The translations under genes were made by a program, and so were the position numbers. DNA of 64,000 nt, from the NCBI GenBank assembly GCA_030737835.1, contig CM060853.1, forward strand, positions 10,908,034-10,972,033, in the 5' to 3' direction. Below are positions 8,670-38,794 of this stretch, piece after piece. Numbering within the stretch: the first letter of the stretch is position 1; each line of letters opens with the position of its first letter. The notes beneath the pieces were generated by a model. It saw only the letters and a program-made list of their open reading frames with translations. It was not told the DNA's origin and ran no database searches. Source of the DNA: Acorus gramineus (Eukaryota; Streptophyta; Magnoliopsida; Acorales; Acoraceae).

Positions 8670-8672
8670 TTA

Positions 8673-12423: not shown

Positions 12424-13370
12424 TATAGCGAACAAAAATGTCCCTTAGTAATTTAAAGAAAATGATGTCCTCGGAGAGCAAATCAATACATAAAAAGATG
12501 ACGTGGGTACAACTTGATCTTTTAATCCTCTGATCCTCGGTCTCCTTTGAAAAGTGTCTCAAGAATTACAACTTCAGGGATTTTTACAAGTTTGTGAAAA
12601 TTTAAAAGGAAGATGAAGAGGCTTGCGGTGCGTGACCCTTCGGGTCTTTTGAGTTTGGGCCTTGTTGTTTAGGACTAGCGTTGCTTTGTTCTTCACCCTT
12701 CTTGAATTTCTGAACTTGAGATTTGATTTAAAGCCGCTTTTTCTTGATCTTCCCTTCTCTGGACTTTCTCCTTCGTAAACAAAGTGAAGATATTCTTCAA
12801 GAAGAAGATGGAATCGAGGGAGAGTTAGTATTTCTCTCCCTTGGATTTTCTCTACACTTTTCTTTTTCTTCTTCTTTGGCTTTCTTGACTTCTCCTTCTT
12901 TTGGTGGGTTCTTCAAGAAGAACGTGGAATCGAGGGAGAGTTTGTATATCTCCCTTGGATTTTTTCCCCACACTTCTTCTTCTTCTTCTTCTTGCTTTTG
13001 CTTTCTTCCTTCTCTCCTTTGGTTTTTTTTGTTCTTGCCTTTTCCACCTTCCCCTTCCCCTCCCTTCTATTTATAGAGGAAGGGAGGGGTGGTTATAAAA
13101 GGTAATGGATAGTTTTAGGGGGTGTGGGTAGTTAGAAATTTTTTTTGACTTTTTTTTTATTATTTGATTTGATTTAACTAAATTTGACTAATTCCTTCTC
13201 TTTTCTTTTCTTTTTTTTTTAATAATTTGGCCTGCCTAGGCAGGGCCGTTTTGGATCTTGTCTTGGCAGGGCCAAATTTGGGCCCTGCCCTGGCAGGGCT
13301 CAGTAGGCCATCATGGGCCTTGCCCTGAATTGGCCATAGCAATTTTTTTTGTTTTTTTTTTTTGTCTACA
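12424..13370 (-). repeat. 3' LTR of element 1 (947 bp)
   Basis: Reads TATAGCGAAC.. to ..GTCTACA on the plus strand. The terminal TG has become TA compared with the other LTR. It contains the minus-strand TATA sequence TATAAATAGAAGG (about 13063-13076), a CTT-rich tract and a GC-rich palindrome cluster (13230-13330). Confidence 0.9.
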
Positions 13371-13672
13371 AATTATTACCCCTTAAGGATGGATAAAAGA
13401 GTCCAAGGACGAATTTTGTCATCCTTGATTAATTATTATTATTATTATTATTATTATTTTTAATTCAAACTTGATTTCATTTAGACATGGATGGCATAAC
13501 TATTAAGTATGTTAGGATGTTAAAATTTTAAATTTAAATTTTAGATTTTGAATTTAAATTTGATTTTATTTAGATATAGATGGCATAACTAAAATGTTTG
13601 TTGTGATACTCAATATTTCAAGTTTAAATTTTATCTGTTTAGATATATATAAAAACTTATGGGAAAAGTGGC

Positions 13673-13680
13673 TATAAATA
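13673..13680 (+). promoter_or_regulatory. TATA box of the antisense PMD gene
   Basis: TATAAATA is followed about 25-30 bases on by 'cactctttcac'-like pyrimidine-rich sequence suitable for a start site, then a short 5' UTR ending in an intron donor at 13778. It is on the opposite strand to gag-pol and outside the LTR, so the PMD gene has its own promoter. Confidence 0.6.
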
Positions 13681-14349
13681 GGAGTTACTCTCTTTCACAA
13701 AACAATTAAATTAAATTAAAAGAGATAGAGAAGAAAGAGTCAATTTCCTCAACGAAACCATCTTGAAGCCATTCCAGGTTAGTATATGTGAATATAGGAA
13801 TTCTTTGATTTGATTTGATTTGTTTACTTCAAAGATAGCATGATGCAAGCATAGATAATTCATGAATTTATGTTTTTGTTCATACTACAGAGTATATGCA
13901 TATTTATTTATTTATTTATTTTATTATTATTATTATTTATTTTTAAATTTTTTATTATTATTATTAAAATCTTTGAACGAATGAATCATATTTACGCATG
14001 CATGGCAGCGATTTCACGTTAAGATCAACATGGATCTTCATGTGTGGTTTACTACCATCAATCAATTTTTTTTAATTTTTTTTTAATTTTTTAAAAGAAT
14101 GTCGGTGATTTATACACATCATAAAATAAATCTGAAAATGAATTAAATGATATCGAATATGATTTTATTAACATAGAGTCAATAGTTTGTTAGAATAATC
14201 ATTTTGTTTTTTTTGAAAATGACAAAACTTCATATTAAATTGATTGTAACCAAATATTTTTTTTCTTTATGGAGTTATTAAAGATTCAAAAGCTGTATTA
14301 TCATTGTTGTTCATAATATTATTATGATTATTTTATCTTATTCTTTTTT

Positions 14350-14440
14350 TTTTTGAGGACCCTGTATAGCAGGGCCGTTCTGGGCCCTGCGAGGCAGGCG
14401 AACTGGCAGGCCGTTCTGGGCCCTAGGAAGCAGGGTCGAT
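14350..14440. repeat. GC-rich GGGCCCTG/GCAGG repeats in the PMD-gene leader intron
   Basis: The block 'cagggccgttctgggccctg' occurs twice and resembles the palindrome cluster in the LTRs (13230-13330, 26510-26675). It stands out sharply from its AT-rich surroundings. Confidence 0.6.
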
Positions 14441-14491
14441 CATTTTTTTAAAAAATATTATTATTATTTGATACCTGTATTGTTTTTGTAG

Positions 14492-17400
14492 ATGACACGA
14501 AGGAGCTTCCGCGGTAACATGTTTTCTCAAAATATCCAACCTTTGTCTGGCGAGGAAAATATAGAATACGTTTGTCTTCCTTCTGATGGTTGGATCGTGG
14601 AAGAGGTAGTCAAAGGAGTCAAATATTTACTTTTTCCCAATGTGATGATTGCGCGACATGGGATAATATCAAAAGAGAATCGTACGACATTGTCGCGTCT
14701 GAGGCTGATAGTTCATGGATGGCATGATCCAGATGGTGTACAATTTGACCCCAGTCTGTCTATGCCATATATAAGCAAAAATATGCGTCCGGACAAAGAA
14801 CCTCTTTCAGCTCATCCAAGACCTCTCTTATCACTTCCCTTTCATCATAATGAAGTGGAGAGTCATCCAATTCCTCTCATAACATCTCGGATCTGCTCTC
14901 GTTCAGCTCGTTGGGGTGAGAGAATAAGGAGTTGAGGCGACATTCAGTATTTGAGCGGTTTTTGTGAATGGATGACTGAAGTCTATGAGGGGCTGGCAGC
15001 TCAGGAGGAGACCAAATCTTTTAGCCATTTTATGGAGCCAGCCTGTTTTGAATATTTTCGTCTTGATAGTGTGTACACAGCTCTTTGCGAACTTTAGTGC
15101 TCGGAGACGAATTCATTCGTTACAAGTGATGGAGAAATTAGCATCTCAATTTTTGAGATCAGCTTGATTTCTGGATGCCCCTTGGGAGGAAGCTATTATG
15201 AAGAGTCTATGGTTGACTTACAGTGTATGATGGAGTTACCTGAATCACATATTTGCTTGCTTTTGTATCGCACATACGCTTTCCTTGCTGCCACACGCTG
15301 CTCTGACAAAATCAGGCATTCTGACTGGATGGAGTTTTTGTATAGAGGTGACTTTCGCTTTCCAAATCCTTTGCGATCGCATATAGTAAGGAGTGCGAAG
15401 GTAAAGCGGGCTTCTGATATCAAGAGACCATTACTCGTTTACAAGGGCGAAAAATGTTCGCAATACGGAAAGATGGACCCCTTTGATCTTCTTAATGTTC
15501 ATAAGGGAAGCAAAGAGGGCAAGGCAGTATATGAAGCAGCCTGTATCGTTCTTTTCCTCTGCAGATTTGCACTGCCTCAGAGCGGAGACTTAATTCGTCC
15601 GGGCACTTTTGTTTCTGCTGCACGTATAGTGACCGGGTTCCATTACAATTTCACGTCTGCCATCCTCTGTAGCCTGTATAAAGGGTTATCTCGTACTTAT
15701 ACAAGTTTGTCGACACTATCTTTCGCTCGTGGTGAAATCGGTCAAGCTACATCTTATTGTCCTCTCCATTACCTTTACGGTTGGATTGGGCTTCATTTCA
15801 GGAAGGGAGTATATGGTATAGTGAAATCCAAAAGTAGATTCCCCTTTTTGCCCAGCATCGCTGGTGCTCTGAATGCTTATATTGACTGGGAACCGTCCTT
15901 CATTGAGCCTCGTGCATTATTGCGTCGCACAAACAAAATAGGCTTCAATTTCTGTCCCAGAAGATCAATTATGAATTTTGGCGAAGTTAGCCTTCTCGAT
16001 GACCAAGATATGCCGCTGGATGCCTTTTATTTTTCTATCAGCTGCAGACCAGGGTATCTGATTTATCGTCGTGGAGACGTAATTGATGTGGAGTCTTATA
16101 ACCCACACCGGTTTGCACGACAACATGGTTTTGGACAAGACACTCCTGGAACTCCAATACCATTAATAGATCCAGTTGGTCATTCACGGGCAATTCAGTT
16201 TTTCATGGCCCTTTTTAGAAGGAATGGATTGAGCTAGTTTACACCGCCGGGTTCTTTGATAGGCTCGAAGAATGCACCTTCTATAGAATATGACATATGG
16301 CTTCGTGAAAAGATAAGACCCATGCTTGCCGATTTCCCGATTGAAATCCTTTTGGAGAGCGAAAAAGCTTCTTTCGAATACAACAAGAGTGAGGGGATAA
16401 GAGATCGCCAGCGCATCAACCCTGGTCCTTTACGGTTTAGATCACCTCAAACTTCTAAATCGGGAGATGTTGATATAACCACTAAAGACCAACAATCATC
16501 TTCCCATATTGCCAGAGATGGTGATGTCCCCAAGGTATTTACTGGGAAGCGGAAGAGATTGGCGAAACGATGCTTACAAATTCAAACGGCACCATCCGTT
16601 TTATTAGAACCAACGCCGCTAATCGATGCTCCTCCAGTGACTACCTCAGAACTGATTCCCAAAGATGTGTCATCCTAGGGAATTGCTTTAGAGGTTGTTA
16701 GCGATGGTGAATCTACATCAGGAACTGTTGATGAAGTTCCTTCTACGAAAATGATTTTTTTTTTTATGATGACCCTATATCCTTCTCTTTTTTTTTGTGT
16801 GCACAGTTCCGCCTGAGCATATGTCTAGCTTGGGTCTACCCATTCCTTTGGACGATCTGGACAATATTGGCTTCGATAATTGGGACGGAGGTCGTGACTT
16901 TTCCATGTTACGGGACTTTATAGAGAACAGCCACCATGACAATGATGCAGAAGGTGCATCGAAGGCTGCTGCTGATATGACTGAAGCTGAGTCTCAAGCA
17001 GTACATGTTGAAATTCAGCTTGATGCATCTGAACCAGTTGAAGAGATTTCACCAGAATTTTCAGTGGTAACAAGAAACAATTCGTGTACAAGAGAAGATT
17101 TTAGGCGCTCTACGGCACCCGTGATGCTTGGACTTTGCCGTCAATTCATTGCCGCTACTCTTGAACCTTACTTGAATGCCGGTTTCACTGCTTTGAAGAA
17201 CTGGTGGAGCTCGGCGAGAATATTTTTTTGTGAGCAACTTCAGAAGTTTGATGTAGATGATCATGCTTTTGCTACTCACATGGAGTCATTCCTTTCTGAC
17301 TGTGATGCCTACCATACCGCTCGAGCGACGCTCACTATGAATGCTGTTTCAGACACAGATGGTCAGCTTTCCTCCCTTGGTGAGGAAATCAGATCTTTCA

Positions 17401-17695
17401 CTGAGAGTCGTGATGTAGCCATGTCTGAACTTGCTGCTGCCAAGTCGGAGCTCGATACTGCAAAGTCGGAGGAAGTGGCCGCTAGAATTATATTTGAAGA
17501 GGCCCAGGCTCATGTCACTGCTGCATCTAACATTGTTTCTATGAAGAACAATGCACTGAATACTTGGGATATTAGCAGAATAAACAGGATCATCTTCGAC
17601 AGTTGAAAAAGGCGAGGGTTACGGACATCCGCAATGTTGACGTTAGGAGAAAGGAGTTGATGCAGCGCCTTCAGAACTTTAGCTCCATATATTAG
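14492..17695 (+). pseudogene. Plant mobile domain (PMD, aminotransferase-like/MAIN-like) gene carried antisense in element 1
   Basis: A 5' UTR exon ends at 13777 (CCAG), intron 13778-14491 ends TTTTGTAG, and the ATG follows at once. Coding exon 14492-16706, a 100-bp intron 16707-16806 that keeps frame, and exon 16807-17695. The PMD core (about 15164-16330) includes DLIRPGTFVSAARIV, YLYGWIGLHF and similar runs typical of PF10536 proteins. The last ~150 residues (from about 17300) form a coiled coil rich in A, E and S. Four in-frame stops (14933 TGA; 15095, 16235 and 16676 TAG) and a frameshift near 17575 break it. The stops are in CAG/TGG-like contexts, as expected from C-to-T decay. AATAAA lies at 17748. 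Whether the PMD protein helps the element or is passive cargo cannot be told. Confidence 0.8.
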
Positions 17696-17699
17696 CTTC

Positions 17700-18033
17700 T
17701 TTTCTTTTTTTGTGTATATCCTCTCTTTTTTTTTGTTATGAATTTGTAATAAAGAATTGTGGATGATGATTGATGGTGATATATATTTATTTTTTGTTCA
17801 AACTAAACCTGATATAATTTCTTAGGCTATTTGCATTAATAATGAATGAAGATTTGGTAATTGACGACTTTTTTTTTGTCTGGACTGAACCTGATGTAAC
17901 TTCTCAGGCTGCCTACGTACCCTTACTTAAGGGATCAAGTCGCACGTAGTTCTTTTTTTTTTTTGGGTGATCCTTCCGACAAAGCGTTCAAGCTATAGCC
18001 AGGCTGGGCAAAAACCCAATTTTTTTTTTTTAT
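17700..18033. other. Convergent spacer between PMD gene and pol 3' ends
   Basis: It holds the PMD-gene AATAAA (17748-17753). Two degenerate direct repeats read 'actaaacctgatataatttc' (17800-17825) and 'ctgaacctgatgtaacttct' (17883-17908). T runs on both sides suit termination of the two converging transcripts. Confidence 0.5.
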
Positions 18034-21000
18034 TTATGGATAATACCTTTTGAGGAACTTTCCATTGATTGGACCAAGTTGATTCCCTCCAGGAGTAGTT
18101 AATAGGTAAGCACCATTGGTGTAGACTTCTTTGACAATATGGGGGCCATCCCATTTAGCATCGAACTTCTTCCCTGCTCTATGGGACATGATGATAGGCC
18201 GTTTAACCGCCAACACAAGATCGTCCTTTTGAAAGGATCGAGGACGTACTTTCTTATTGAATGCGCGAGAAAGACGTGCGTGGTAGCATTGGAGGCGTTG
18301 TTGTGCTTCAAGCCGCTTTTCATCTAAAGCTTCCAGTTCTGTTAGACGAAACCGAACGTTGTTATCTTGAGTAAGCCCCTCTTGAATAGCAATTCTTAAT
18401 GAAGGAATTTGAAGCTCGAGAGGAAGAATGGCTTCTACTCCGTATACAAGAGAATATGGGGTTGCTTGTGTAGGAGTTCGGAATGATGTACGGTAAGCCC
18501 AAAGAACTTCGCCTATACGTTCATGCCAATCCTTTTTCGACTTGAAAACTATCTTTTGTAGTAGTTTACACAAGGTCTTGTTGAAGGCTTCCGCTAATCC
18601 ATTGGTTGGAGCATTGTACATCGTCGAGCGCCTTTGTATGATCTTGAACTTGGCACAAAATTGGTCCATGGCAGCATTTTTGAATTGTTTACCATTGTCT
18701 GTCACAATGAAGCGAGGAATGCCATATCGAAAAATAATATTATCTTGGATAAAGTTAATGACCGAATTCCGATTGACTTCTTTGAGAGGAATCGCTTCAG
18801 CCCATTTAGAGAAGTAATCTGTTGCGGCTAGGATATAGCAATGTTGTTTAGACGACTTTGGCAGGGGTCCGACTATGTCGAGTCCCCAACTATAGAATGG
18901 CCATGAAGCAGTAGTAGGATGTAGGGGCTCTGGAGGCTGATGAATATAGTCCCCATGGAATTGGCAAGATTGACACCCTTTTGAAAATTCTAAGCAGTCT
19001 TTAACCATAGTAGGCCAATAATAACCCATTCTTTTGATATGAAGATGAAGCTTTGGCCCGGATTGATGTGTGCCACATATACCAGAATGTGCTTCTTTGA
19101 GAGCTGTTTCTGCTTCTTCTCGCCTTAAACATCTCATCAAGACGCCATCATAACTACGACGATATAACTCGTCGTTAAAATGAAGGAACCTTGATGCACG
19201 ACGACGAATATCAATTTTGTGTTTTGCGTCATCTGGAAGCCTGCCGCGAACAAGATAATTTATCATTGGTTGCCTCCAATCTTGCTCTTCTGTCATAAAT
19301 ACATGGACCACATCTGTTTGTACTGGAATTTGATTGCTTGTATCATCTGTGACAACCACCCACTTGCGACAAAGAGGGATGACCAAGCGGTTAGTGTCCG
19401 GGAGAGTAAGAGTAGTAGCCAAATTTGCCAGAGCATCTGCTTGTCGGTTGAGGCCCCTTGGAACATGTTGAATAGTGGCATCATCAATAATGTGGAACAA
19501 TGTCAATGCCCTTGTATGATACGGTATCAAGTCTTCTTTATTAACTTGATATTCCCCCATAATCTGACAAATAACAAGCTTTGAATCACCATGAATTTGG
19601 AGTTCTCGAATACCCATATCGACAGCGAGTTCGAGGCCGATAATTAATGCTTGATATTCTGCCATATTATTAGAACATGGTTCGGATAGGACGAAAGAAA
19701 ATGGGAGAACTTCATCTTTAGGTGTGACAAAGACGATTCCTGCCCCTGCCGCTTCACGTCTTGCAGCGCCGTCAAAGAACATCTTCCAAGATGGAACAAT
19801 GTCAATAGAAAGCACTTCTTCGTCAGGAAAATTTTCAGTCAATTCCCATTCAGCAGGGATTGGATAATCTGCTAGAAAGTCGGCCAATACTTGTCCTTTT
19901 ATAGCCTTTTGAGAGACAAAGATGATTTCAAACTCACTCAGAAGGAGAGCCCATTTTGCTAGCCGTCCTGAGAGAACTGGCCTGGACATAATATACTTGA
20001 GGGGATCTGCTTTAGAAATAAGTCTGATCGTGTGTGCGAGCATGTAATGCCGAAGTTTCTTCGTGGTGAAAATGAGTGCAAGACACATCTTCTCAATTGG
20101 CGAATAGTTTAATTCGGCACCAATAAGAGTACGACTGAGATAATAGCACGCCACTTCTTTGCCAATATGATTTTCTTGAGCAAGGAGTGCCCCGATAGAG
20201 TGTTCTTGAGCACTAATATATAGAATAAGGGGTACACCAGGAACTGGAGCAGATAGAACTGGTGGCTTTAATAAATATTGTTTGATGCTATTGAGGGCGT
20301 TTTGGCAAGTAGCATCCCACTTGAAGATGGTATCCTTCTTCATGAGTCGGCTAAAGGGGTGACACCTTCCAGCCAAATTTGAAATAAACCTTCTGATGTA
20401 GGCCAAGCGACCTTGTAGACTTCTAAGGTCATGCAATGATTTGGGTTCAGGCATGTTGAGAATAGCATCAATTTTGGATTGATCTATCTCAATGCCACGA
20501 TGCCTAACAATGAAGCCAAGAAATTTCCCCGAAGTGACTCCAAATGCGCATTTGAGCGGGTTCATTCGAAGTTGATATCTTCGTAGACGATTGAAAATAT
20601 GTCGAAGATCATCAAGGTGAGAGGTCCTTTGTTTAGACTTCACGACGAGATCATCAACGTAGCATTCAACCGTTTGGTGGAGAATATCATCGAAGATCTT
20701 CTGCATGGCGCGCTGGTAAGTAGCACCTGCGTTCTTCAAGCCAAATGGCATCACTTTATAGCAATAGATGCCTTTTGGAGTGCGAAAAGCTGTGAGTTCT
20801 TCATCTTTGGGTGCCATTCGAATCTGATTATAGCCAGAAGATCCATCCATGATAGCTCTTCATGACCAGTTGTCGCATCCACCATAAGTTCAGTAATTGG
20901 CAATGGAAAATCGTCTTTAGGACACGCATTGTTCAGATCTCTGAAATCTACGCATACCCTGATTTGTCCATTCTTCTTTTCTACTGGTACGATGCTCGAG

Positions 21001-24000
21001 ATCCAAGTAGGATATTTGACCTCTCGGATGAAGCCGGCTTCAATTAGCTTGTTGACTTCATTCTCGATTTGTGGGATTAACTCGGGTCGGTAGCGTCTTT
21101 GCCCTTGTTTAATAGGGCTAGCGCCATGCCAAACAGCAAGTTGGTGTACAACAATTTTAGGATCCAATCCTGGCATCTCCTTGTAAGACCATGTGAAGAC
21201 GTCTTTGTACTCCTGAAGAAGTTTAACATATGCAGCTTCTTCTTCTGAAGCTAGGAGTGCACTAAGAAAGGTTGGGTGTGGATCTTCTTTGGTGCCCAAA
21301 TTGACTTCTTTTAAGTCGTCTACGGTGGATTGTTCTCTTTCATCAAGGTCAGGCTGTGCGTCCAGCAATTCGTCGTCCGAATGAGAAGTATTCTCAATGT
21401 TTGGCTCGTCATGAATGGAATTGTGGTTGACGGAGACAACAATGGATGTAGAAGAATCATCCATGGGAGCATCAGAAGGTGGACGAGTAGTGATGACTAC
21501 TGTCCTTGGCTTGTCACAAGAAGGATCATTCGATGCAGACACTTGAATGGTAGTAAGCTTTGAGGAGAACGGATACATAGGGCTATTTGAGGACGTCGTA
21601 AGTTGTCTACCCTCCTTGTGATTGCCTCCAAGTTGGCGATGTTGTCAGGTGGGGCGAGTGGACTCCATGGTGGTCTTCGAAATGGGAGCGATCGGTCCCA
21701 AACGACTGAATACTGACTGTCGAGTCGATGGAGCATGGACAACCTTGGATTTCGTCTTTGACTTTTCAGGCCTTCGGGATACTGAAGTAACCCTTTGTTT
21801 GGGGTTTTGTTGTACAAAATGAAGCTCTTGAATGACTTCATCATGCCCCCCAAGCCTAGCTTGATGTTGTGCTTGTCTGCCTCGTCTTCTTGTACGCCTG
21901 GATTTTGACTGAGTATTGTCGATGGACGCCGATGTTGGATCTGCTTGAGATGATTGCGACTTGGACGTGCAAGAATTGTTCGCTATCTCCACTTGAATAT
22001 GATTAGAGGAGAGGTCTCCTCTGATGGCTGACTTAACGATAATTGGAGTTTGCACAAAGCCCATGCCACGTCTGGATATTGGTATCTTTTCTCCGGCATG
22101 AATGAGGTGAGCTTGAGTCTTGGTCATCCCGCACGGGATTGTTTTTGGGGGAAGCGCCCCTAGAGATGCCATATCGCTAATGTGGAAGCCCGCCTTTTGT
22201 AGCAATTTCGACGACTTCTCGCTCCAATGACCTTCTGGTACGAAGCCTGACAATGGAGGGGTTGTCACTGATGTAGGTGACAAGGCATGCAAGGGCAAAA
22301 TCATCTTTTGCTGAAGTGCGACAATGTCAGCTTCGGTGAATAATGACTGCAATTTTGCAGTTGCTGATGTGAATAGTGGTTGTTCTGATGTACGATGTGC
22401 TTTGGAAATGAGGCGTAACACAGGGCCAACTTGAGCATTGGTTGGAGGATGTGGATTGGTTCCCTGTACATGCTTGATTCGCATCTTTCTGCTTGAAGTA
22501 GATGTAGTTTGCTCTTCAACATTTTTCTTGATGCCGTGTGGAGTTTTCATCGGCAATGCTTCGGCGACTACACCCGTTGCTTGATAGAATTTGGCATCAG
22601 CAAGATGTATTTCTGTTTTGGTGAAGGGTTTGCTGTCAGCAGCGACACATTTTTCCACACCGTCTTTATAATATTTGAAGCATTGGTGCCAAGTAGAGAC
22701 CACTACCCCATTTTCATGTAGCCATGGCCTCCCCAATAGAAGACGATATGAAGTTCTACAATCAATGACATGGAAGAGAATCATTGTATCAAGTTCACCA
22801 ATTGAGAGCTTTAGGCGTATAATGCCAATAGTAGACTGTCCGGCTTGGTTGAACCCTTGAATAACCAATTGGCTTTGAGAAAGCTCACTGGTTGTAATGC
22901 CTAATTGTTCCATGGTCTGGACAGGCATGATGTTGACAGCAGAACCGCAATCTAGCAATATGCGAGTTATTTGCTTCTCTCTGATGTATCCTGACACATA
23001 GAGGGGCCTATTGTGAAGGCGGACTCCAAGTTGCAGGTCTTCATCAGAGAAAGATATGGTGAAGTTGCAAGACGGTGATGCCCCCTCTCCTTGATTGGCT
23101 TCAGATTCTCTCTTATAATCATCAGGGTTGGTCAAGACTGCTGCCATGGTGAGGCGTGCTTCTGAGAGATGCAACGCTTCAATGAGAGGTAGATGAAGAA
23201 TAGCCTCCTGGTAGGAAGCAGAATGATCTTCAGTAGCTTGTGGGCTGACGAGGGCCTTTTCATCATCGGAATGGTCAACTTTGGAAGACTCCGCCAAGCT
23301 AGAGGTAGTAGGGAGCGTTAGAGTTTCAGCGCTCTTTATTTCTGAATCATGGACCTCCACCATATAGCAAGTCTCCGTGGGAGAGGTTGAAGAAGAACTG
23401 GAAGGAGGGAGTGTTTCAAGGGCGTCGGCTTCAATGGAATCTGCCAGAGTAGGTGGACCCGGGAGATTCTTTTCAATAAGATCTGCAGGGTCTATCTGGG
23501 TTGCTTTGGATATTTGCCTTGTAGCCATCCTCCTTACTTGGGAATCTGGGAAACACGACTTCTCATTGCGCATCTTCATAGTCCATCCTTCTTCGTCGAT
23601 AAGGTCTCCCTCCCTTGGAGTTTGGGATTCCGATGCTTCGTCTCCCCACCCATCAGGGGCATCCCGAGAAATGCGTTCCAGATGTGGATCATATCGCATA
23701 CAAGCATGTGTGCAATTACAAGTCGGCAATGGCTTTGGTGGATCAAGCTCCTTTGGGATTTGAACAGGTGAGAAGGAGCCGAAGGAGATTGATGTTGTAT
23801 TTGCTGATGCGACATCTCCCAAGTCAAGCTCAATTTTTCCCTGACGTGCAAGATCCATCACCTTCTCTTTGAACACAAAGCATTGCTCAATGGGGTGGCT
23901 AACCACCCTATGATATTTGCAGTATAGCAGGTCATTGACACGATCTGCTTGTTCAGGCCTCTTTGACTCGGGGAGTTCAATCATCTTCTCTTTGAGTAAC

Positions 24001-25511
24001 TGATCGAACATAGCGGAGACTTCGGAGTCTGGGAAAGGGTACACCTTGGCTTTAAGTTCTTCAAGGGTCATTCGTGGCGCTTTCTTCTGAGAGGAGCCTG
24101 GATCAAGTTTGCTTTTGTCTGCTGCACCACTCGTCCCCCATGGTTTTGAGGAAGACGCGATATTGACGACATTCACATGCTTCTTCTTAGGCGCAGATGC
24201 TTTGTCTTTGTCATCTTTCACAAAGTCCTTCGGCTTGAAGTCTCCGTGAGTGGCCAGGCTAATCTCCATATCGTGCGCTCGAGTAGCCAATTCTTCAAAG
24301 GTATGAGGTTTGATTCCCTTGAGAATGTAGAGAAGGCCCCAATGCATGCCTTGGATGCACATTTCGATTGCTGAAGTTTCTGACAATCGATCTCGCGAAT
24401 TAAGGGCAAGATTCCTCCACCGGTCAATGTAGTCGATCACCGATTCTTCCTTGCGTTGTTTAACTGCAGCCAACTCCACCATGCTGACAGTACGGCGAGT
24501 GCTATAGAAGCGAGTGAGGAATTCTCGTTCTAAAGCCTCCCAACTGTCGATTGATGCGGGCAAAAGATCGACGTACCAATCGAATGCATTCCCCTTTAGG
24601 GAGCGCACGAATTGCTTCACCATCAAGTCGCCATAAGTGCCAGCATTGTTGCAGGTTTCGATGAAATGGGCAATGTGCTGTTTTGGATTGCCCTTCCCAT
24701 CAAAATGCTGAAATTTCAGTGGTTGGTATCCCGATGGAAAGCGGAGCTGCTGGATGCGTTGAGTGTACGGCTTTGAATACCCCGCTGAAGATTGGACATA
24801 TCCGCCATTTTGAGTGCGGACCATGTCTGCTACTAATGACTGTAATTGTTGTACAGTCATAGCCGGAGCAACCGAAGCTTGAGACGCCGCGAGAACTGTC
24901 GTTGGAGGAATGACCATCGATTGCTCAATGGGCAAAGTTGATGCAGAGACAGCATTTGGTGACACTGGCACCTGATTTGAGGCGCCGGTATCATCCTTCG
25001 AGCCCAATTTTTGGAGAAGAATGCTAATTTGACGGTCCTTCTCCATCATCATCTGAGCCATCTGCGCCATGGATTGATTGAGTTGCTGAATTTGCTCCTC
25101 GAGTTTGGACATTGAGGGATGGTTGTGTGTGCACCTTGCCCCCGGCGTGGGCCCATCGAATCTGGTGTTGGCGTCGTCATCAGAGATGTAATTAAGATGA
25201 ATTACAGTCTCCACTTCATCTTCGGTACGCGCTACTCGAACTTGAGCACCAAGATCATTTGAATCGTCATGCACCTCCTGTGCCGTTGCATTATTGGCAT
25301 TCTTCATCGTACCTTCGTCTTCCATTTCTGGAACGAGGGTTGATGTCGTAGCTCTAGCTCGCCTAGTGTAGACGCGCATGCCAGGAGTGGTGACCGGTAT
25401 TGCATCGTGCGCCTCCTGGAAAAGATTTTCCAAGCCTCCTTGTTGAAGTGAAGTAGGGTCAACAAGAGGCGTTTCGCTTGCAGGAATGGCATTGGTGTTG
25501 GCTTCGGCCAT
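18034..25511 (-). pseudogene. gag-pol of element 1 (Tat-type Ty3/gypsy), one stop and one frameshift
   Basis: From the ATG at 25511 one frame runs through gag (retrotransposon gag domain, residues ~265-400, with [20 protein letters not shown]) and protease (active site LLDCGSAVN, with C in place of the usual T/S). A single TGA at 21645 follows. The same frame then enters reverse transcriptase. A short deletion near 20850, inside the motif around the first catalytic Asp, shifts the frame. The rest is open to 18034: RT YVDD box, RNase H, a second archaeal-type RNase H (FFDGAARREAAGAGIVF), and integrase with H-H-C-C finger, D..D..E core (GLDIVG, TDNG, GLAEAFN) and a C-terminal DNA-binding tail. 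Gag and pol share one frame, as in other plant gypsy elements. Confidence 0.92.
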
Positions 25512-25581
25512 GGTTGTACTTCGAACGCCTTAGAAGAAGGAAGTCCGAGCTTGACGGAAATGAGGGATGAGAGGAGATGAT

Positions 25582-25600
25582 TGTCCCACCGGGCGTGCCA
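25582..25600 (-). other. Primer-binding site of element 1
   Basis: TGGCACGCCCGGTGGGACA on the minus strand, six bases inside the 5' LTR. It begins TGG, complementary to the CCA end of a tRNA. The tRNA species was not identified with certainty. Confidence 0.75.
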
Positions 25601-25606
25601 AAAATC

Positions 25607-26703: not shown

Positions 26704-26708
26704 GCATG

Positions 26709-27150: not shown

Positions 27151-27244
27151 TTGTAAAATGATTTGAAACACTATGGGATCGAATGTGGTGTGACATAGGC
27201 TTATTCGTCTCTGATAGCTATACCGAGATAAATAACAATCCATG

Positions 27245-29165: not shown

Positions 29166-29878
29166 TGTGGGCGCCAAATTTTCTGGCTGCCAATACCAGG
29201 CCGGGTCTCGAAGCCCATCCGATCAGATCTGACGGAATGACGACCCGCTGGACTCAAGCCCACCTCAACGGGTCGGGTTATTGGTCCTACTACCCGACAA
29301 TGCGGCAGCCCAGTCGACCCTAGTTCGAACGGGTCTGACTTGAAGACCCAGATCTGACCAGGTCAGTATCTAATCCATCCAATTATTACATTGATTCACA
29401 TAAATCTGTGGCACTAAATGATAATTATCAGCATTCAATCTCCATCAATACCAATTTAAATCACCAAACCAGGTCATTATTGACTTTGTCCACCAAATCC
29501 CTATGAAATCCGGATATACATGTCAACCCATAATTGACCAAATCAAGGAGTATATCTTTTGTTTCCTAACTAACAGCAGATAAAATCTCGTCCGTCCGAT
29601 GGAGAGGGTCGGATCCAAAGCCCAAGTACCATTCGACCTCCTCTATAAATAGGGGACAAGACCACACTGTTGGTAGGGACAATTCCTTTTTATTAAACCC
29701 TTCTTGGCCATTTTGACTGACTTAAGCGTCGGAGAGTCTTCCGCAGGTCCCCCATCTCTCATTGTTGGAGGCGTTCAAGAGGTGCTCACCGGCGGTGCAA
29801 GAGACGTTCGGGCGGAGGAGAACAGGAGAGGCCGGATCCGCTTACCCGAATCTGACAAGGAAAAATTCTGCCCCTCCA
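29166..29878 (+). repeat. 5' LTR of element 2
   Basis: TGTGGGCGCC.. to ..CCCCTCCA. It contains TATAAATAGGGG (about 29644-29655). By eye, differences from the 3' LTR are mainly transitions and are concentrated in the GC-rich first 200 bp. Confidence 0.92.
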
Positions 29879-29881
29879 GTT

Positions 29882-29899
29882 TGGCACCATCTGTGGGAC
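29882..29899 (+). other. Primer-binding site of element 2
   Basis: TGGCACCATCTGTGGGAC starts three bases after the 5' LTR. The TGG start fits pairing with a tRNA 3' CCA. Confidence 0.65.
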
Positions 29900-29925
29900 G
29901 CGAACGAAAAGCTTAGCTCGTCGTT

Positions 29926-31325
29926 ATGCCTCCCAAGAGAACTCCCCCGCCTACATCGCTGCCGGCCAGCACGTCAGCGGCCAACCCATCATCCCTTCCC
30001 GGAGTGACCGAGGGAGATGAACCAATCCCCGAGGTCATAGCGGTTCAACAAATATGTGATGAAGCCCTGGCCCGCGTGGAACGTGCCGAGAAGCAGGTCG
30101 AAGAACTAATCCGAACGATCGAGGTGGCCATAGAAGAAAACGATCGCCTTCGGACCGATTGAGGTAATTCAAATCCCCCAAGCCAGCCTCAGCCTATGTC
30201 TCCGGTGCCCAATGACCCCCGGTGGACCAACGGGCACGTTAACCTTACCGGGGATGAGCGCTCAGAGCAGCCGACAGTTTCCTCCAATGCTGCCACTCCT
30301 TCCAAGCGTCCCCGAGAGGAGGACCACGTCTGGCAAGACATGCAAGACAACATGACGAAAGAATTCGACCGGCGCATTCTTCACAACTTGAAGCCTCGGA
30401 CCCCTACGGATATCGTCATGCAAACGGCGCATTTGATCAACAACTCCCCCTTCGTGGAAGAGATCGTCCGCGCTCCCAAACCAGATAAGTTCACCCTTCC
30501 AAAGTTTAAACTGTTTGAGGGAAAGTCCGATCCCACCGAGCACATCTTTCATTATAAATAGCTTATGTCCCTTGATGCATGGGACAACGCTTTGCTATGT
30601 AAGGTCTTTCCGCAAAGCCTCGGAGGACAGGCCTTGACATGGTTCTGCAAGCTCCCGGCCAGCTCCATCAATGACTTCAGAAGCCTCTGTGAGGCATTTA
30701 TTAGCCATTACATATGTCATTGCAAGCCCAAGAAGGACGTGACGAGCCTATTCGGGATGAAGCAGGCGGAGGGTGAGAGCCTCCGAGACTACCTCACGCG
30801 CTTCAGCGTGGAAATGACACAAATTGAGGCGTGCGACCCTCAGACCGCGGCGATGGTGTTCTGAGGTGGTTTAATCCCCACTGGGCATCTCTACGAGTCC
30901 CTCGTCTGGGAAACCCCTACCCACATGGTGGACTTGCTCTCCCGCGCATAAGGATCCATCCGCTTGGAAGATGATGTCTCGCTTGCTGCCCGAAAGGCGA
31001 CTACCGTCGTAACGGTTGGGCCATCCCGCAAGGACACCCATCCCCCGAAGAAACAGTCCTCCGCGATGTCGCAAAAGGACGAGGTGAAGCCCGCCAGTTC
31101 TCACCCTCAAAGGGTGAAGGACTTTGTGTTGACTCCACTCACCGTGCCGGTGCGGCAAGTCTAGCATGAAAACAAGGATAAAGGGTACTTCAGGGCCCCT
31201 TTCCCGATACGGAGTCCCGTCGAGAATCGGGATCAAGCTCGCAAGTGTGAATTCCTCAACGAAATCGGACATACCGCCGAAGAATGCAGGAGTCTTCGCG
31301 GACAGATAGAGATTCTGTGACGGGC
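29926..31325 (+). pseudogene. gag of element 2, broken
   Basis: One frame starting MPPKRTPPPTS is interrupted by stops at 30160, 30559, 30862, near 30949 and 31162. Between them the retrotransposon gag core is plain (GGQALTWFCKLPASSINDF; YLTRFSVEM), followed by a zinc-knuckle-like C-x-C remnant near 31245-31290. A frameshift near 31318 separates it from the protease frame. It cannot make a full Gag. Confidence 0.85.
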
Positions 31326-31339
31326 ACCTTGCACACTAC

Positions 31340-34300
31340 GTGGCACGGCAGCCTCATGCCGCCAAGCTAGACAGCGACAATGTTGCGGACACGTCCAAAC
31401 CCGATGGAGCGCCAACCAGGATCGTGTCGGTCATCCACGGGAAACCCGTCCCGGACTACGCCTATCTGGCCTCGAAGTGCCAATCAGGACCGTGGAAGCG
31501 CCCCACCACGGATCCGACCAACCAGCGTGGAATAGCCATTAATTCTATTCATTTCAGGGCTGATGACCTCGAGCAGGTATCCCTTCCTCACGTTGACCTG
31601 CTGGTTATTTCTATCTATATATGCAATTGCCAGGTACAAAGGGTTATGGTCGACGGAGGAAGCAGCGCGGACATCTTGTTCTTGGATGCCTATCGTCGAA
31701 TGGGTTTGGACGTGGAGGAGATCAGGCGCTCCAATCCTCCCTTGGTCAGATTTGACGGGAAACAGGTAAGCCCGGTCGGCGCGGTTGCACTTCTAGTCAC
31801 AGCCGTCGACCGCACCCTCAGCGTTGAGTTCATCATCATCAACTCCCCATCGGCTTACAACGCTATCATGGGACGCGAGTGGATCCACCGGATGGAAGGA
31901 GTACTATCCACCTTACATCAGGTCATGCGGTGCATCACTAAGGATGGGCGGTCCACCATTGACATCCGTGGGGACCAGGTGGCGGCTCGAAAATGCTATG
32001 CCTTGGCGTCCCAGGTGCCCGACTGTCCCGTTGAGGGACCGTCATCCCTTGGCTTATAGCAATCAACCGACCGGCCATTGAAGTGGGTTCAAGCGCTGCT
32101 CGAGTCCGAACCTGAGCCACCCACTCTTGAGCTGGTCGACATCGTCCCCCTAGGCGAGGACGACCCAGAGAAGACCGTGCAGCTAGGGAGCCTTCTGCTT
32201 GACCACAAAAAGAGGTCAATGATTTCGTTTTTGTAGGACAACCGAAACGTGTCCGCCTGGACTCACAGCGATATGCCAGGTATAGACCCCGCCATTGCTG
32301 TCCACGAGTTGAACGTGCGACCCGACGCAATCCCAGTAAAGCAGAAACAATGACGGTTCGCACCCGAACGAAACAAAGTGATCCCCGATGAAAATTGATC
32401 GACTTCTCTCAGCCGGGTTCATCCGGAAAGTCCGTTATCCTGACTGGATATCCAACGTGGCGCTGGCAGAGAAGAAAGGCGGGAAGTGGCGTGTTTGCAT
32501 TGACTTCGTTAACCTCAATAAGGTATTCCCCAAAGACGGTTATCCCCTGCCGAAGATAGATTAGCTCTTGGATGCCACGGCAAGATACGAGCGTCTGTCG
32601 TTCCTGGATGCCTATTCGGGGTACAACCAAATTCCCCTCCACCCACGCGATTAGGAGAAAATCACGTTTATCTCAGAGCACAGACTGTATTGCTACAAGG
32701 TAATGCCCTTCGGACTAAAAATTGCAGGTGCCACTTTCCAGTGTTTGGTCAATAGGGTTTTCAAGCATCTCATTTGGCAGACAGTGGAGGTGTACATCGA
32801 TGACATGGTGGTCAAAAGTCGAAGCCACGCACAACATTTGCAACACCTCGCCGAGGCCTTTGAGGCCCTCCGGGCACATCACATGAAGCTGAATCCGGCC
32901 AAGTGCTCGTTCGGCGTCTCTTCCAGACACTTCCTGGGCCACATCGTGCATCGGCAGGGCATAGAGGCCAACCCGACGAAGATTCTAGAACTCCGCGATT
33001 CTGTCACCCCTAAGGCCGTTCATGACGTCCAGGTGATCACCGGCCGAATAGCCACCCTGTCCCGTTTTATCTCTCATCTTTCAGATAATTGTCGGTCATT
33101 TTTTCAGGCTATTAAAGGAGCGAGGGGCAAAATCTGGTCAGACAAACAGCAGGCAGCGTTCCAAAGCCTCATAGACCATCTCAGCCAGCCGCTAATTTTA
33201 TCCGTCCCGGTCGAAGGTGAGACGCTTTTTCTGTACCTCGCCGTGTCTGTAGCGGCGGTCAGCGCTGGTTATTCAAAGAGGACCGCCAACAGCAGCGTCT
33301 GGTCTTCTACATAAGCAAGGCCCTACTGGACACCGAGACCCGCTATTCGCCCATCGTGAACCTCATCCTGGCGCTTGTGGTAACGAAAAGAAAGCTCCGA
33401 TACTATTTTGAAGCGCATCCAGTCGTCATGCTCATGTCTTACCCCATCCGGGTCTTCTTACACAAACCGGATCTCTATGGATAAACCGCCAAGTGGGCCT
33501 TGGAGTTGTCACCATTCGACATCAACTATTGCCCCCGGGTCGAGAAGAAGGGCCGGGTAGTGGCCGACTTCCTGCTGGAGTTCAACCCGGAGGACGACAT
33601 GTGAAAGGCCGCATCAAAGCTCGATGACTCGCTAGAATTTTTGGAATGGTGGGATCTCTTTATCGATGGAGCATCCAACACCGGGGGCAGCGGTGCTGGG
33701 ATCGTATTGAAGACTCCTGATGGCACCCAACTGGAACATTCTATCAGGCTAGAATTCTGTTCCACGAACAACGTGGCCGATTTGCAGCTCGCCAAAGCTC
33801 TCTACATCAGGTATCTACGTGCGTACTGTGACTCGCAGTTGGTCGTGCTACAGCTTCAGGGGGGATATACGGCTAAGGATGAGAAAATGGAGCGATATCA
33901 TTGCCTGGCTGTCCAGCTCTCCCAAGACTTCTTCGACTTCGAAATCAGCTACCTGCCTCGTGGGGAGAACAAGGAGGCAGACTCGTTAGTAGTGGGAGTC
34001 ACCATCCCAGGGGGGCGTTGGATCGGGCCGACAATCCTTCAACGACCATCAATCGACCCGGGGCTCACCATCCATGTGATGAAAAGGGAGGCCCCTTGTT
34101 GGATGGACCCAATTGAGACTTACATACGTGATGGTGCGCTGTCGGCAGACCAAATCGATGCTCAGAAGGTGCGTTACTGCTCCGCCAGTTATGCCATCAT
34201 AGAAGGGGTGCTCTACCGACGCAACGCTTGCGGCCCCTTCCTCTGGTGTCTCAGTGCGATGGAGGCCAAGCTGTTGATGGAAGAAATCCATGAGGGATCC

Positions 34301-35341
34301 TGCGGTGACCATTCCAGTGGACGATCGCTTGCCCATCGCATCCTTACCTAGGGGTATTACTGGCCCTCACTCAGGAAAGACGCCACCGCATTCGCCCGAA
34401 ATTGTGAGAAATGCCAGAAATTCTCCCCGATTATCCACCTCCCTACAGAAGAGCTCCACACTCTAACCGCCCCATGGCCATTTGCCCAGTGGGGGATTGA
34501 TATTGCAGGACCTTTTCTAACCGCTGCGGAAGGAAAGAAGTACGTGCTCCTGGCAACGGACTATTTCACCAAGTGGGTGGAAGCGGAAGCATACAAGACG
34601 GTCAAGCATGCTGACGTCAAGAATTTCCTATGGAAACATATCATATGCAGGTTCGGTGTCTCCAAGGCCATCATCGCGGACAACGGAACTCAGTTTGCAA
34701 ATGCACCGATTAAGGAATTTTGCAATAAATACGGCGTTCAACAGCATTTCTCCTCATGAGCATACCCACAGGGAAATGGGCAAGCCGAGGCAACAAACCG
34801 CACCATCTTCACTATGCTCAAGAAGCGGGTCAACAAGAAAAAAGGCGCATGGCTCGAAGAGCTTCCGGGCGTGTTATGGGCCTACCGCACCACTCGAAGA
34901 AAGCCTACAGGAGTGTCGTCGTTCACCCTCGCATACAAGACCAAAGTGGTTATCCCCTCTGAAGTCGGGCTCCCCACTCTACGAACCTCCATCGCTCTCA
35001 GCGAATGGAACAATGAAGCCCTCGCCAATAACACTGTGCTCCTGGAGGAAGCTAGGGAGACGGCTTCAATTCGCCTTGTCGCCTACAAGCGCCGTCAAGC
35101 TCGACACTTCTACAAAAAAGTCCACCCACGGTCATTCTCGCCCGGTGAGTGGGTGCTCAAACGAGTTACCGATAACACACGTGAGTCAAACGCTGGGAAG
35201 CTCGGGGCCAATTGGGAAGGACCGTACGAAGTGATAGAGGCCTACAACAAGGGGGCATACCGGCTATGCACCATCGGCCCAAGAAAGCTACTCATACCAA
35301 CTCCTTGGAACGCCATGAACTTAAGGAAGTTTTATGCGTAG
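31340..35341 (+). pseudogene. pol of element 2: protease, RT, two RNase H domains and integrase, broken
   Basis: The protease (31340-32059) has the active-site run MVDGGSSADILF, with the usual DTG/DSG changed to DGG. RT (about 32400-33150) keeps FLDAYSGYNQI and YIDDMVV but carries in-frame stops near 32562 and 32652. The first RNase H (33200-33600) is frameshifted. The archaeal-type RNase H starts at 33650 (DLFIDGASNTGGSGAGIV). Integrase (34352-35341) has the zinc-finger C-x-x-C (CEKCQ), D (GIDIAGPF), D (IADNGTQF), a TGA at 34757, and E (GQAEATNRT), with a complete C-terminal tail. Two RNase H domains place it in the Tat group. Confidence 0.9.
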
Positions 35342-35550
35342 GGCCCTCGGTGGCCATCATTGAATAAATGTAATAGATGCTATCTCTGTTACTCTATTTT
35401 CAACTGCTATTAATAAATAAATGCCACTCTCTTCAGCCATGATTTCTGAAAAGGGTGTCCAAACCAGTTCTCGTTATACTGTAAGTCGAACTAATAGCGT
35501 CGGGATTATGTCAGTGAGTTTCGCTCCTATCCTCCCCATTCACAATAAAA

Positions 35551-35957
35551 CTCAATCGCCCCCTCATCTGGCTACGTCGCGCAAAGCGGCCCGAGCCCGA
35601 GGCGGTCAAGCCCAATCGTCCCCTCGTCTGGCTACGTCGCGCGAAGCGGCCCGAGCTCAAGGCGGTCAAACTCAACCGCCCCCTTGTTTGGCTACGTCGC
35701 GTGAAGTGGCCCGAGCCTAAGTCGATCAAACTCAACTGCCCCCTCGTATGGCTACGTCGCGCGAAGTGGCTCGAGGCGGTCAAGCCCAATCGCCCCCTCG
35801 TCTGGCTACGTTGCACGAAGCGGCCCAAGCCCAAGGTGGTCAAACTCTCCTCGTCTGATTGCATCGCGCAAAGCGGCTCAAGCCCGGGGTGGTCAAGACC
35901 ACAACGGCCTCCTCGTCTGGCTACGTTGCGCGAAGCAGCCCCAGCCCCAGATAGTCT
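35551..35957. repeat. 60-bp minisatellite in the 3' untranslated zone of element 2, about 7 units
   Basis: Unit starts are near 35551, 35611, 35671, 35731, 35785, 35845 and 35898. The first four are exactly 60 bp apart and the fifth is shortened. The consensus contains CGCCCCCTCGTCTGG, CTACGTCGCGCGAAG and CGGCCCGAGC. Because 60 is a multiple of three, long spurious ORFs appear on both strands. Tandem repeats at this site are known for Tat-type elements. Confidence 0.88.
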
Positions 35958-36299
35958 GATTCACAGGGCCGCCTCACCAAGGAATGCCGCGAATGGCTCC
36001 TGCCTAAGACGGTCCTACCCCAACAATAGTTTTGTTCGAACCACGCCCACGCCCACGCCCAAAACGGCTCGTTCCAGAGGGCCAGGTTCGCAACCAATTT
36101 GATCCCATCCTCATGGCAGCCTCGCTTGGTCACAACGGATTGTCAATGCAAACCAAACGCGGCTCCTCTCTTGAAATACCCAATTCAGCCACGCTGATTA
36201 AAATGACTTAAGCCCGCAATGGGTCATCTCACACACGCACTCAATACAAGCCCGGGACTGTAACGTTCGTACAAGAAACTTACAACAACAGTAAGTGCA

Positions 36300-36340
36300 A
36301 CGAAAAAAGATTTTTTATTACAAAGTTTGATTACATACAA
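36300..36340 (-). terminator. Polyadenylation region of the antisense gene of element 2
   Basis: On the minus strand: 'ttgtatgtaatcaaactttg' followed by 'taataaaaaat'. A far-upstream UGUA-type element and an AATAAA-type signal are in the right order for a plant poly(A) site. Confidence 0.45.
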
Positions 36341-36363
36341 AAAGAATTTCTATGCGCCCCCAG

Positions 36364-37654
36364 CTACCACCCGAACCGACGGGTGCCGCGGGGTCGATAG
36401 CGACAACGACGAGGGAGTTCCGAATACACATTGGGAGCGAAGCCCTCCTCCCGATCGATCACCTCCGACGGAATCCTCCTTGCACTCCCCACAGGCAAGA
36501 GTGCCGCGTCCCATGCCTCTCGGTATGTCCGGGCCCGCGTCACGCTCAGCCCAGCATCGAGGTCATCTTCAAGGGCGCAGACCTCCCCTTCAAGTTCCAG
36601 CGCCCGGGATTGCCACCGGGTGGCAGATCGCTGGAGGGAGTCGCGCTCCGTAGTAACCGCAGAAAGCGTCAAAGCGGCCTGAAGAGCGGCCTCTTCCGCC
36701 CTGGCCAGCGCTCCCAAAGAAGAGTCCCGACCAGTAGCTGGGGCAGAAGCGACGTCGTCCTCCTCGCCGCCCGTCCCAGACTCTTCTTCATCGCTCTCAA
36801 TGATGAGCCGGCGCTTCCCCCAACAATTGTCAGTCAGAGGTTGCTTGCCACCTACCTTGCTGCTCTCCCCTCAGACCGGTACGCTGCCTCTAGGGCCGCT
36901 ATTGTGGCCTGGGGAAAGAATCGACGAGCACCGGCAATCGCCATCAACTCCCTGGCGTCCAGAACCGGCGTCTCCAGTGTGATCACGTCGAAGAAGGACT
37001 GGTCCCACATCAACGTCTTCACTGCCTCTTGGACGGTGTCGTCCAGAAACCGGACCCTCGAAAAGGGCATGCCAACGGTGGGGTCAAGACGCCCTGCATA
37101 AACAGGAGCATGCAAAGTCAAAAAAAAAGAAAAAAAAAAGAGGAAATACGAAGCGACAAGCACAGGAACGATTACGCACTGAGTTTGCCAAAAGAAGTCC
37201 GAATGGGGGGCACGCCATCGACAGGGCATGGCCAGGGTCCCCCGATCAACACGACCTCGTCCTTCCACCCACGATCGCGGTCCAGAATGCCTTGCATAAG
37301 GTATTTATCCCCTCGCATGACGAAGTAGTACCGCAGGGAGCTCCCCGGACACTGAGCCAATCGGTAGAAATACATTACCTCACGTATCCTGAGGCTGTAC
37401 CCATGGGTCTCATTCAGATAAAGGGCGGCAGCCAGAACTCGGAAGACGTTTGGGTGGACCTGCATCGGCGCCACTCCAAAGAAAGAAAGGAACGTGGGAA
37501 TGAAGGGGTGGAGCGGATACTGGACGGCCGTCAAATGATACAAGGAGAAGTAGGCCTCCCCCACGAGGAGACCTGCTCCGTTGCGAACGAACGGGCCGCC
37601 CTCCACCAACTTCACCGTCACCCCACATGGAAACGGAAGTCTCTTCTGCACCAT
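36364..37654 (-). pseudogene. Antisense gene of element 2: 'putative gypsy type transposon' (PF04195-like) domain plus coiled coil
   Basis: On the minus strand, exon 1 is 37654-37180, an 86-bp intron 37179-37094 (GTGCGT..GCAG) keeps frame, and exon 2 runs to a TAG at 36364. I place the start at the ATG at 37654 and not at the upstream ATG at 37759, because a TATA box sits between them. The N-terminal half (LLVGEAYFSLYHL, FLSFFGVAPMQVHPNVFRV, YFYRLAQCPG) resembles the PF04195/Transposase_28 family found in plant gypsy elements; this is from memory of the family and needs an HMM check. The C-terminal half is acidic then coiled coil (ERDSLQRSATRWQSRALELE). One base seems lost in a G run near 36864, shifting frame. 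It converges on pol, as the PMD gene does in element 1. Confidence 0.7.
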
Positions 37655-37743
37655 TTTGACCGAGCGATAGGGGCAACAGCAGGGGGACGAAGAAAGTAAG
37701 AGGCGTAGATATAAGGACAGGGACGAGACTGTCCCTTCGGTGC

Positions 37744-37752
37744 TATTTATAG
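37744..37752 (-). promoter_or_regulatory. TATA box of the antisense gene in element 2
   Basis: TATAAATAG on the minus strand, about 90 bases upstream of the chosen ATG at 37654. It is outside the LTR, so the gene has its own promoter. Confidence 0.55.
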
Positions 37753-38081
37753 ATGACAAAACCGCCTCTTCAATCCCTTTGCGCCGTTCTCTGAAATAAG
37801 GGGACTCATCATGACGGCCCTTCGACCGAAGTCCCTCCCATGCCGACTGTCGCCCTTCTCGAAACGGCGTCCCATCGGTTCAGACGACTTGGCATCTTAC
37901 GCACCCACTCGTCACTCGCCCCTGACGCAAGGAGGGCCGTTGAATCTGAGGGGATACGCGCCCTAACCGAGGCAATTCATTTCAGCGTGACGCAGTTGAC
38001 AACCTGACACGTGGCGCCTCGTACTAAGTTTTTCCCATTTGACAAGAATGACTATCAGTCGAATGAGAAAAAGGGGGCATC

Positions 38082-38794
38082 TGTGGGCCCCAAATTTTCT
38101 GGCTGCCAATACCGGGCCGGGTCTCGAAGCCCATCCGATCTGATTTGACGGAATGATGACCCGCTGGGCTCAAGCCCACCTCGACGGGCCGGGTTACTGG
38201 TCCTACTACCCGACAATGCGACAGCCTAGCCGACCCTAGTTCGAACGGGTCCAACCTGAAGACCCAGATCCGACCAGGTCAGTATCTAATCCATCCAATT
38301 ATTACATTGATTCACATAAATTTGTGGCACTAAATGATAATTATCAGCATTCAATCTCCATCAATACCAATTTAAATCAACAAACCAGGTCATTATTGAC
38401 TTTGTCCACCAAATCCCTATGATATCCGGATATACATGTCAATCCATAATTGACCAAATCAAGGAGTATATCTTTTGTTTCCTAACTAACAGCAGATAAA
38501 ATCTCGTCCGTCCGATGGGGAGGGTCAGATCCAAAGCTCTAACACCATTCAACCTCCTCTATAAATAGGGGACAAGACCACACTGATGGTAGGGACAATT
38601 CCTTTTTATTAAACCCTTCTTGGCCATTTTGACTGACTTGAGCGTCAGAGGGTCTTCCACAGGTCCCCCACCTCTCATTGTTGGAGGTGTTCAAGAGGTG
38701 CTCACCGGCGGTGCAAGAGACGTTCGGGCGGAGGAGAACATGAGAGGCCGGATCCGCTTACCCGAATCCGGTAAGGAAAAATTCTGCCCCTTCA
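38082..38794 (+). repeat. 3' LTR of element 2
   Basis: TGTGGGCCCC.. to ..CCCCTTCA, the same length as the 5' LTR. TATA box at about 38560-38571. Confidence 0.92.

Follow-up and report, generated by a model that had tools for sequence, protein, structure and literature searches.

Why should two long terminal repeat (LTR) retrotransposons of one plant genome each carry an additional gene in the same place, on the strand opposite to their own? The question is raised by a 64,000-nucleotide stretch of Acorus gramineus DNA (GCA_030737835.1, contig CM060853.1, positions 10,908,034 to 10,972,033 of the forward strand), hereafter the window, which holds two Tat-type Ty3/gypsy elements, A and B. A first-pass annotation of the window had described in each element an opposite-strand gene between integrase and 3' LTR; LTR pairs and domain matches confirm this arrangement for both. 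The gene of A encodes a PMD domain and that of B a Transposase_28 (TRP28) domain, and in both the domain is followed by an unannotated tail. The explanation that we consider probable is that these are two lineage-specific accessory proteins, selected as proteins, which would owe their common antisense slot to inheritance and to a rule of orientation.

The principal evidence is the pattern of substitution within the two genes. The ratio of nonsynonymous to synonymous substitution rates (dN/dS) was pooled over copy alignments (11 copies of B, four of A) that include decayed copies, and the estimates are therefore pushed towards 1. In B, the coding frame gave a dN/dS of 0.27 over TRP28 and 0.26 over the tail, whereas the two alternative frames gave 1.06-1.34 and an upstream control gave 0.70-0.94. 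In A, PMD gave 0.42 in frame (0.95 and 0.73 out of frame) and the tail 0.32 (0.49 and 1.50). Two relatives outside the window could be added to this comparison (loci elsewhere in the genome are given L numbers). The diverged relative L065 has an open tail frame of 343 amino acids (aa; 55% identity) beside an integrase 47% identical over its last 220 residues, and the tail differs more at synonymous than at nonsynonymous sites (pN 0.25 vs. pS 0.54). PMD was not found in the 5.3 kb before this tail; a swap of the N-terminal domain in L065 was considered and rejected by eye, as no frame there suggested a replacement domain. In the decayed relative L077, identity was 59% and 49% for the tail and 42% for PMD. 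In these few comparisons, constraint on the tails is roughly equal to that on the named domains, or stronger. The coding frame has the smallest dN/dS throughout, always under 1. This favours a protein, and selection most likely acts on the gene product rather than on antisense transcription as such.

These values bear directly on the idea that the antisense transcription unit is itself the selected thing, with RNA pairing to genomic RNA or polymerase interference tuning copy number and the protein incidental. Pairing along the full length of the gene is possible, because the genomic RNA would traverse the whole antisense gene to reach the 3' LTR, and regulation by double-stranded RNA (dsRNA) has been proposed for such genes (PMC7264820). 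A role for the RNA alone, however, predicts no codon bias of change, so the constraint specific to the coding frame in both genes counts against it, as do the out-of-frame values above 1 and the upstream values in B; intron lengths, moreover, diverge freely. We therefore regard this alternative as unlikely. The first-pass annotation had proposed that either an antisense transcription unit or a coiled-coil partner was selected; neither proposal is supported, the coding-frame dN/dS pointing to the protein.

A survey of the 398.6-Mb genome, of the kind suggested with the first-pass annotation, extended the question of strand and position beyond the window. The genome was searched with the integrases of A and B, with PMD and TRP28 (each as family model and as protein), and with the tail of B, and the places found were paired by coordinate; as the searches score best candidates only, all counts are lower bounds. 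The 113 matches to the A integrase were reduced by 8 repeat fragments of copies already counted and 5 belonging to families B and E, leaving 45 in family A and 55 in a group C, and all 150 matches to the B integrase were used (61 in family B, 89 in a group E). Further fragments of copies and weak matches were left out of the other searches; among the matches listed, those used were 116 of 163 for PMD by Pfam model and 32 of 57 by protein, 41 of 41 for TRP28 by Pfam model and 103 of 151 by protein, and 88 of 136 for the B tail. A search with the A tail (54 matches) was kept outside the scripted pairing.

Within families A and B, strand and position proved constant. A PMD lay within 15 kb of 23 of the 45 family-A integrases, antisense and downstream in all 23. 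In family B, searched with queries derived from the window, TRP28 was found within 10 kb of 43 of the 61 integrases, the tail at 47 and either one at 48; all 48 partners were antisense and downstream, where about 0.3 partners would be expected by chance. Among the 103 TRP28 places, the B tail was on the same strand in all 65 linked pairs, 62 of them spaced by 521-1,180 bp. For B and E combined, 51 of 150 integrases had a TRP28 partner (49 antisense and downstream, 2 on the same strand). The antisense layout is a feature of whole families, beyond the two elements of the window.

In our reading, each of the two Tat families has a gene for an accessory protein, equipped with a TATA promoter, one or more introns, and a poly(A) signal, and these genes would be expressed. 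The PMD protein of A and the TRP28 protein of B are kept by selection on their amino-acid sequence. Their role is most likely a nuclear one, either in the expression of the element itself or in its escape from silencing; the analogues on which this proposal draws are the antisense protein of maize Grande, which is nuclear, and the PMD-containing host proteins MAIN and MAIL1. Slot and strand would be shared mainly because copies inherit both. A gene cassette that brings along a promoter, introns, and a poly(A) site may also be tolerated in genomic RNA only in the antisense orientation, since a sense cassette would be spliced out or would truncate the genomic RNA. Two separate acquisitions passing the same filter would then yield the same layout without a common protein or RNA partner.

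Several observations weigh against this reading. Copies within one family share ancestry and are not independent; the strand counts therefore amount to at most two or three independent origins, and binomial values calculated from them are given no weight. For A, dN/dS was estimated from four copies, and one of the wrong frames of its tail lies near the true one. No partner was found for 22 of the 45 family-A and 13 of the 61 family-B integrases. In group E, more distant from B, TRP28 was found near 7 of 89 integrases, 6 antisense and 1 on the same strand at 8.7 kb; the family-B integrase C61:602602 has a TRP28, found with the Pfam model, on the same strand 8.6 kb upstream, and that TRP28 is also antisense to another integrase. 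In the Tat-like group C, PMD or TRP28 was found near none of the 55 integrases. Lastly, the cassette rule might lead one to expect a depletion of AATAAA on the sense strand of the slot, and this was not seen (raw counts of 13 sense and 3 antisense in A, 4 and 1 in B), which leaves the rule without direct support here.

Group C integrases share 41-45% identity with that of A and perhaps represent more than one family. The member that was read, L076 (genome contig 54), has reverse transcriptase (RT), RNase H, and a second RNase H and looks like Tat. In its slot (L064) no protein-like frame was seen by eye on either strand; 28-bp tandem arrays follow pol instead. Upstream of its RT, L076 also encodes a G-patch domain (35.9 bits).

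Could the extra genes be neutral passengers, pieces of a host gene or Mutator-like element (MULE) that each family picked up a single time and has since simply replicated with itself? The window copies are broken, and the domain has other homes: of the 116 PMD places located with the Pfam model, not one had a surveyed Tat integrase within 15 kb, and one PMD locus, L025 (among L001-L030), also has a frame resembling MULE transposase by eye, from which we conclude that PMD is widespread in this genome outside these elements. A passenger, however, would show neither the purifying selection measured here nor a tail kept beside an integrase as diverged as that of L065, and antisense TRP28 is described as ubiquitous in recently active Retand elements (PMC11963269). 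We consider neutral carriage highly improbable. The earlier suggestion of selection rather than chance capture thus gains support from the constant strand and position in A and B together with purifying selection in the coding frames.

The shared design had been thought to include a C-terminal coiled coil, and each extra protein might then act as an adaptor, docking on Gag or on itself through the coil of its tail. Coils were predicted with a COILS-type score, with shuffles and the reverse strand as controls. In B, 6 of 11 copies had a predicted coil of roughly 50 residues, placed in the middle of the tail and followed by about 60 conserved non-coil residues; a C-terminal coil is borne out only in part. 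In A, the decayed window copy scored p = 0.95 (reached by 0 of 60 shuffles) and the other copies were borderline, with 0.53 in L062 and L063 and L061 below threshold, scores that 3-4 of 60 shuffles reach; L065 gave 0.62 and 0.66. The adaptor is further favoured by a predicted coil in the Gag of A itself. Against it, the tails of A and B show no similarity (no blastp match), and none of 30 TRP28 loci (of 41 matches) had a coil on the gene strand, with each locus covered to 1.5 kb past the match, in a test that can miss decayed coils; the reverse-strand control gave a spurious coil in 5 of the 30. This survey is weaker than it looks, because L056, a family-B copy with a tail, was scored as having none and many of the loci are decayed. 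On balance, a conserved coil in E-type TRP28 genes is unlikely and its place in a common design of the A and B genes doubtful, and we judge the adaptor distinctly unlikely.

The first-pass annotation had called the domains of the two proteins different. Comparison of sequence profiles supports this: PMD against TRP28 gave hhalign probabilities of 0.1-0.3%, against 96.8% for TRP28 of B vs. E and 87.6% for PMD of A vs. PMDs of other loci as positive controls. AlphaFold2 models of PMD and TRP28 were unusable (mean pLDDT 35.9 and 32.0); a search of solved structures returned nothing for PMD and one chance-level match for TRP28 (antibody chain, E 0.18), and an NCBIfam search one chance-level match only. 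A single ancestral antisense accessory gene of Tat, its N-terminal domain since swapped (PMD for TRP28 or the reverse) or diverged beyond recognition, would account for the same slot, for the identical TATA box CTATAAATAG of the two window genes, for an intron between domain and tail in both, and for a tail better kept than PMD in L077. With neither domains nor tails matching, we think common descent very unlikely. The same holds for its broader form, in which the slot would be one ancient Tat accessory locus, the unannotated tail its constrained working core, and the N-terminal domains parts exchanged between lineages; we put this, too, as a very slight prospect. Separate acquisition of two proteins remains our preferred account.

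The genes themselves (Table 1) have much of the plant-type design first attributed to them: each has a TATA box and a poly(A) signal, and in each an intron follows the named domain. Intact window copies are not part of the picture, for both are broken. In the window, the A gene is interrupted by four in-frame stops, has lost a splice donor, and ends in a truncated tail. In all three other A copies read (L061, L062, and L063), the PMD exon frame is open (766-789 aa from stop to stop, running into the intron), and GT-AG splice sites, TATA box, and AATAAA are all present; the tail is open in L062 (322 aa) and L063 (310 aa) and split over two frames in L061. PMD (Pfam PF10536, cut-off 34.9 bits) scored 46.9 bits for 15098-16234 of the window copy and 61.0 bits in L062; the A tail gave only chance-level Pfam matches (E 0.09-0.1). 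Besides the coding intron noted earlier, the A gene has a predicted intron in its 5' untranslated region (UTR), in which no coding signal was detected in any frame (dN/dS 0.81, 1.01, and 1.17). Open frames exceeding the usual length of about 310 aa hold the tail in three further A copies, C112:42056, C10:5643860 (680 aa), and C1:9897509 (598 aa), where the intron may be open or lost.

In the B gene of the window, the frame of the tail is parted from the upstream exon near 36857. Its TRP28 match falls just under the PF04195 cut-off of 26.2 bits, and the family-B sister copy L056 passes at 28.5. The TATA-region sequence CTATAAAT is exact in 4 of 11 B copies (the window, L066, L067, and L069). 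Among other copies, the donor GT of the intron is lost in L071, L073, and L075 and the acceptor is deleted in L069. Neither gene overlaps the pol frame: about 340 bp would separate the end of the A tail from the pol stop, and about 1 kb separates the end of the B tail from it.

Table 1. Features of elements A and B and of their antisense genes (window coordinates)
Feature	Position	Strand	Remarks
Element A, Tat-type Ty3/gypsy	12424..26703	-	LTRs 12424-13370 and 25607-26703; flanked by 5-bp target duplication GCATG
TATA box CTATAAATAG, A antisense gene	13672..13681	+	Read directly; identical in L061, L062, L063
Predicted 5' UTR intron, A gene	13778..14491	+	GTTAGT...TTGTAG directly before ATG 14492; splice signals kept in L061, L062, L063
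PMD exon, A gene	14492..16754	+	In-frame stops 14933, 15095, 16235, 16676; open in L061, L062, L063
Coding intron, A gene	16755..16806	+	Donor lost in window copy, acceptor kept
Unannotated tail exon, A gene	16807..17695	+	Borderline coiled coil; window copy open only to 17606; fully open in L062, L063
AATAAA poly(A) signal, A gene	17745..17760 (approximate)	+	Before pol stop at 18034; read directly; kept in L061, L062, L063
RT, RNase H, second RNase H, and integrase frame, A	18034..20859	-	Domain matches: RT, RNase H, second RNase H (RVT_3), integrase
gag-protease frame, A	21645..25529	-	Retrotrans_gag 49.6 bits; predicted coiled coil at residues 139-175
Element B, Tat-type Ty3/gypsy	29166..38794	+	LTRs 29166-29878 and 38082-38794
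60-bp tandem array, B	35553..35947	.	6.8 copies; between pol and antisense gene
AATAAA poly(A) signal, B gene	36314..36319	-	Read directly
Tail, B gene	36367..36870	-	Acidic linker, coil of ~50 residues, conserved non-coil end
Intron, B gene	37094..37179	-	86 nt; GTGCGT...TGCAG; same place in copy alignment
TRP28 exon, B gene	37180..37654	-	PF04195 Transposase_28, 24.0 bits
TATA box CTATAAATAG, B antisense gene	37743..37752	-	Read directly

A second RNase H (aRH) between RNase H and integrase is the mark of angiosperm Tat elements, and both A and B have it. In the pol of A, RVT_3 occupies residues 362-481 of a single frame, between RT_RNaseH (209-310) and integrase (from 581); in the pol pieces of B it lies in 33605-34348, between RT (32655-33311) and an integrase piece from 34760. 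Alignment of the LTRs gave 55 differences over 938 aligned sites for A (K 0.061) and 41 over 721 sites for B (K 0.060); no target duplication was seen at B. Elsewhere in the window, a 383-aa open frame at 46281-47432 was recognised by eye as resembling an exon of a host receptor-like kinase, and a cluster of repeats, both direct and inverted and some 115-122 bp long, lies at 8670-9191.

Extra genes of this kind have been described before, and the antisense layout and the dsRNA idea are both already in print (PMC7264820, PMC11963269, PMC6317226). According to Neumann et al. (2019, PMC6317226), 57% of Ogre elements contain PMD and 23% of Retand elements contain Transposase_28, and the same authors used the position and orientation of the extra open reading frame (ORF) to divide Tat; PMD in Gypsy elements goes back to Steinbauerova 2011, as cited in PMC9289625. 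Antisense TRP28 was found in 97% of Retand clusters, with 11 Smc hits (Vicient 2025, PMC11963269). Vicient and Casacuberta (2020, PMC7264820) discussed own promoters, a nuclear Grande protein, and regulation by dsRNA; the protein in question, that of Grande gene23, is nuclear and transcribed from its own promoter.

Element B fits Retand (Grande, RIRE2, Retand; PMC11963269) by its antisense TRP28 between pol and 3' LTR, and tandem repeats are likewise reported from that region of Retand; the Smc hits of some Retand clusters may correspond to coiled coils, a gloss that is ours. B differs from the elements of that paper in being an older, broken copy (LTRs 5.7% apart) for which selection on domain and tail has been measured. 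Element A resembles Ogre (PMC6317226) in coding content, by an extra ORF that codes for PMD. Ogre is described as having two ORFs separated by about 274 bp, whereas two relatives of A have at the integrase a single open frame of 2,562 and 2,561 aa, nearly the whole gag-pol span judged by frame length only; because of these we would describe A as a Tat-type element with a PMD gene and not file it as Ogre. The same Pfam domain occurs in the host and MULE PMD proteins, including MAIN and MAIL1 (PMC7156037, PMC5418596), from which the A gene differs in sitting within an LTR element and in adding a long tail. A title search of the literature, with partial coverage, found no selection test or tail analysis of such genes, and within that coverage the selection measured here on domain and tail goes beyond published accounts.

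What the antisense genes of Tat elements do, and whether the protein or the transcript is the thing selected, was left open in PMC7264820. Constraint specific to the coding frame, on domain and tail alike and in two families of one genome, favours the protein, and it marks the unannotated tails as parts worth studying. The cassette rule, for its part, may offer a simple reason for the antisense orientation: it is the one that would let a self-contained, intron-bearing gene pass through the RNA intermediate.

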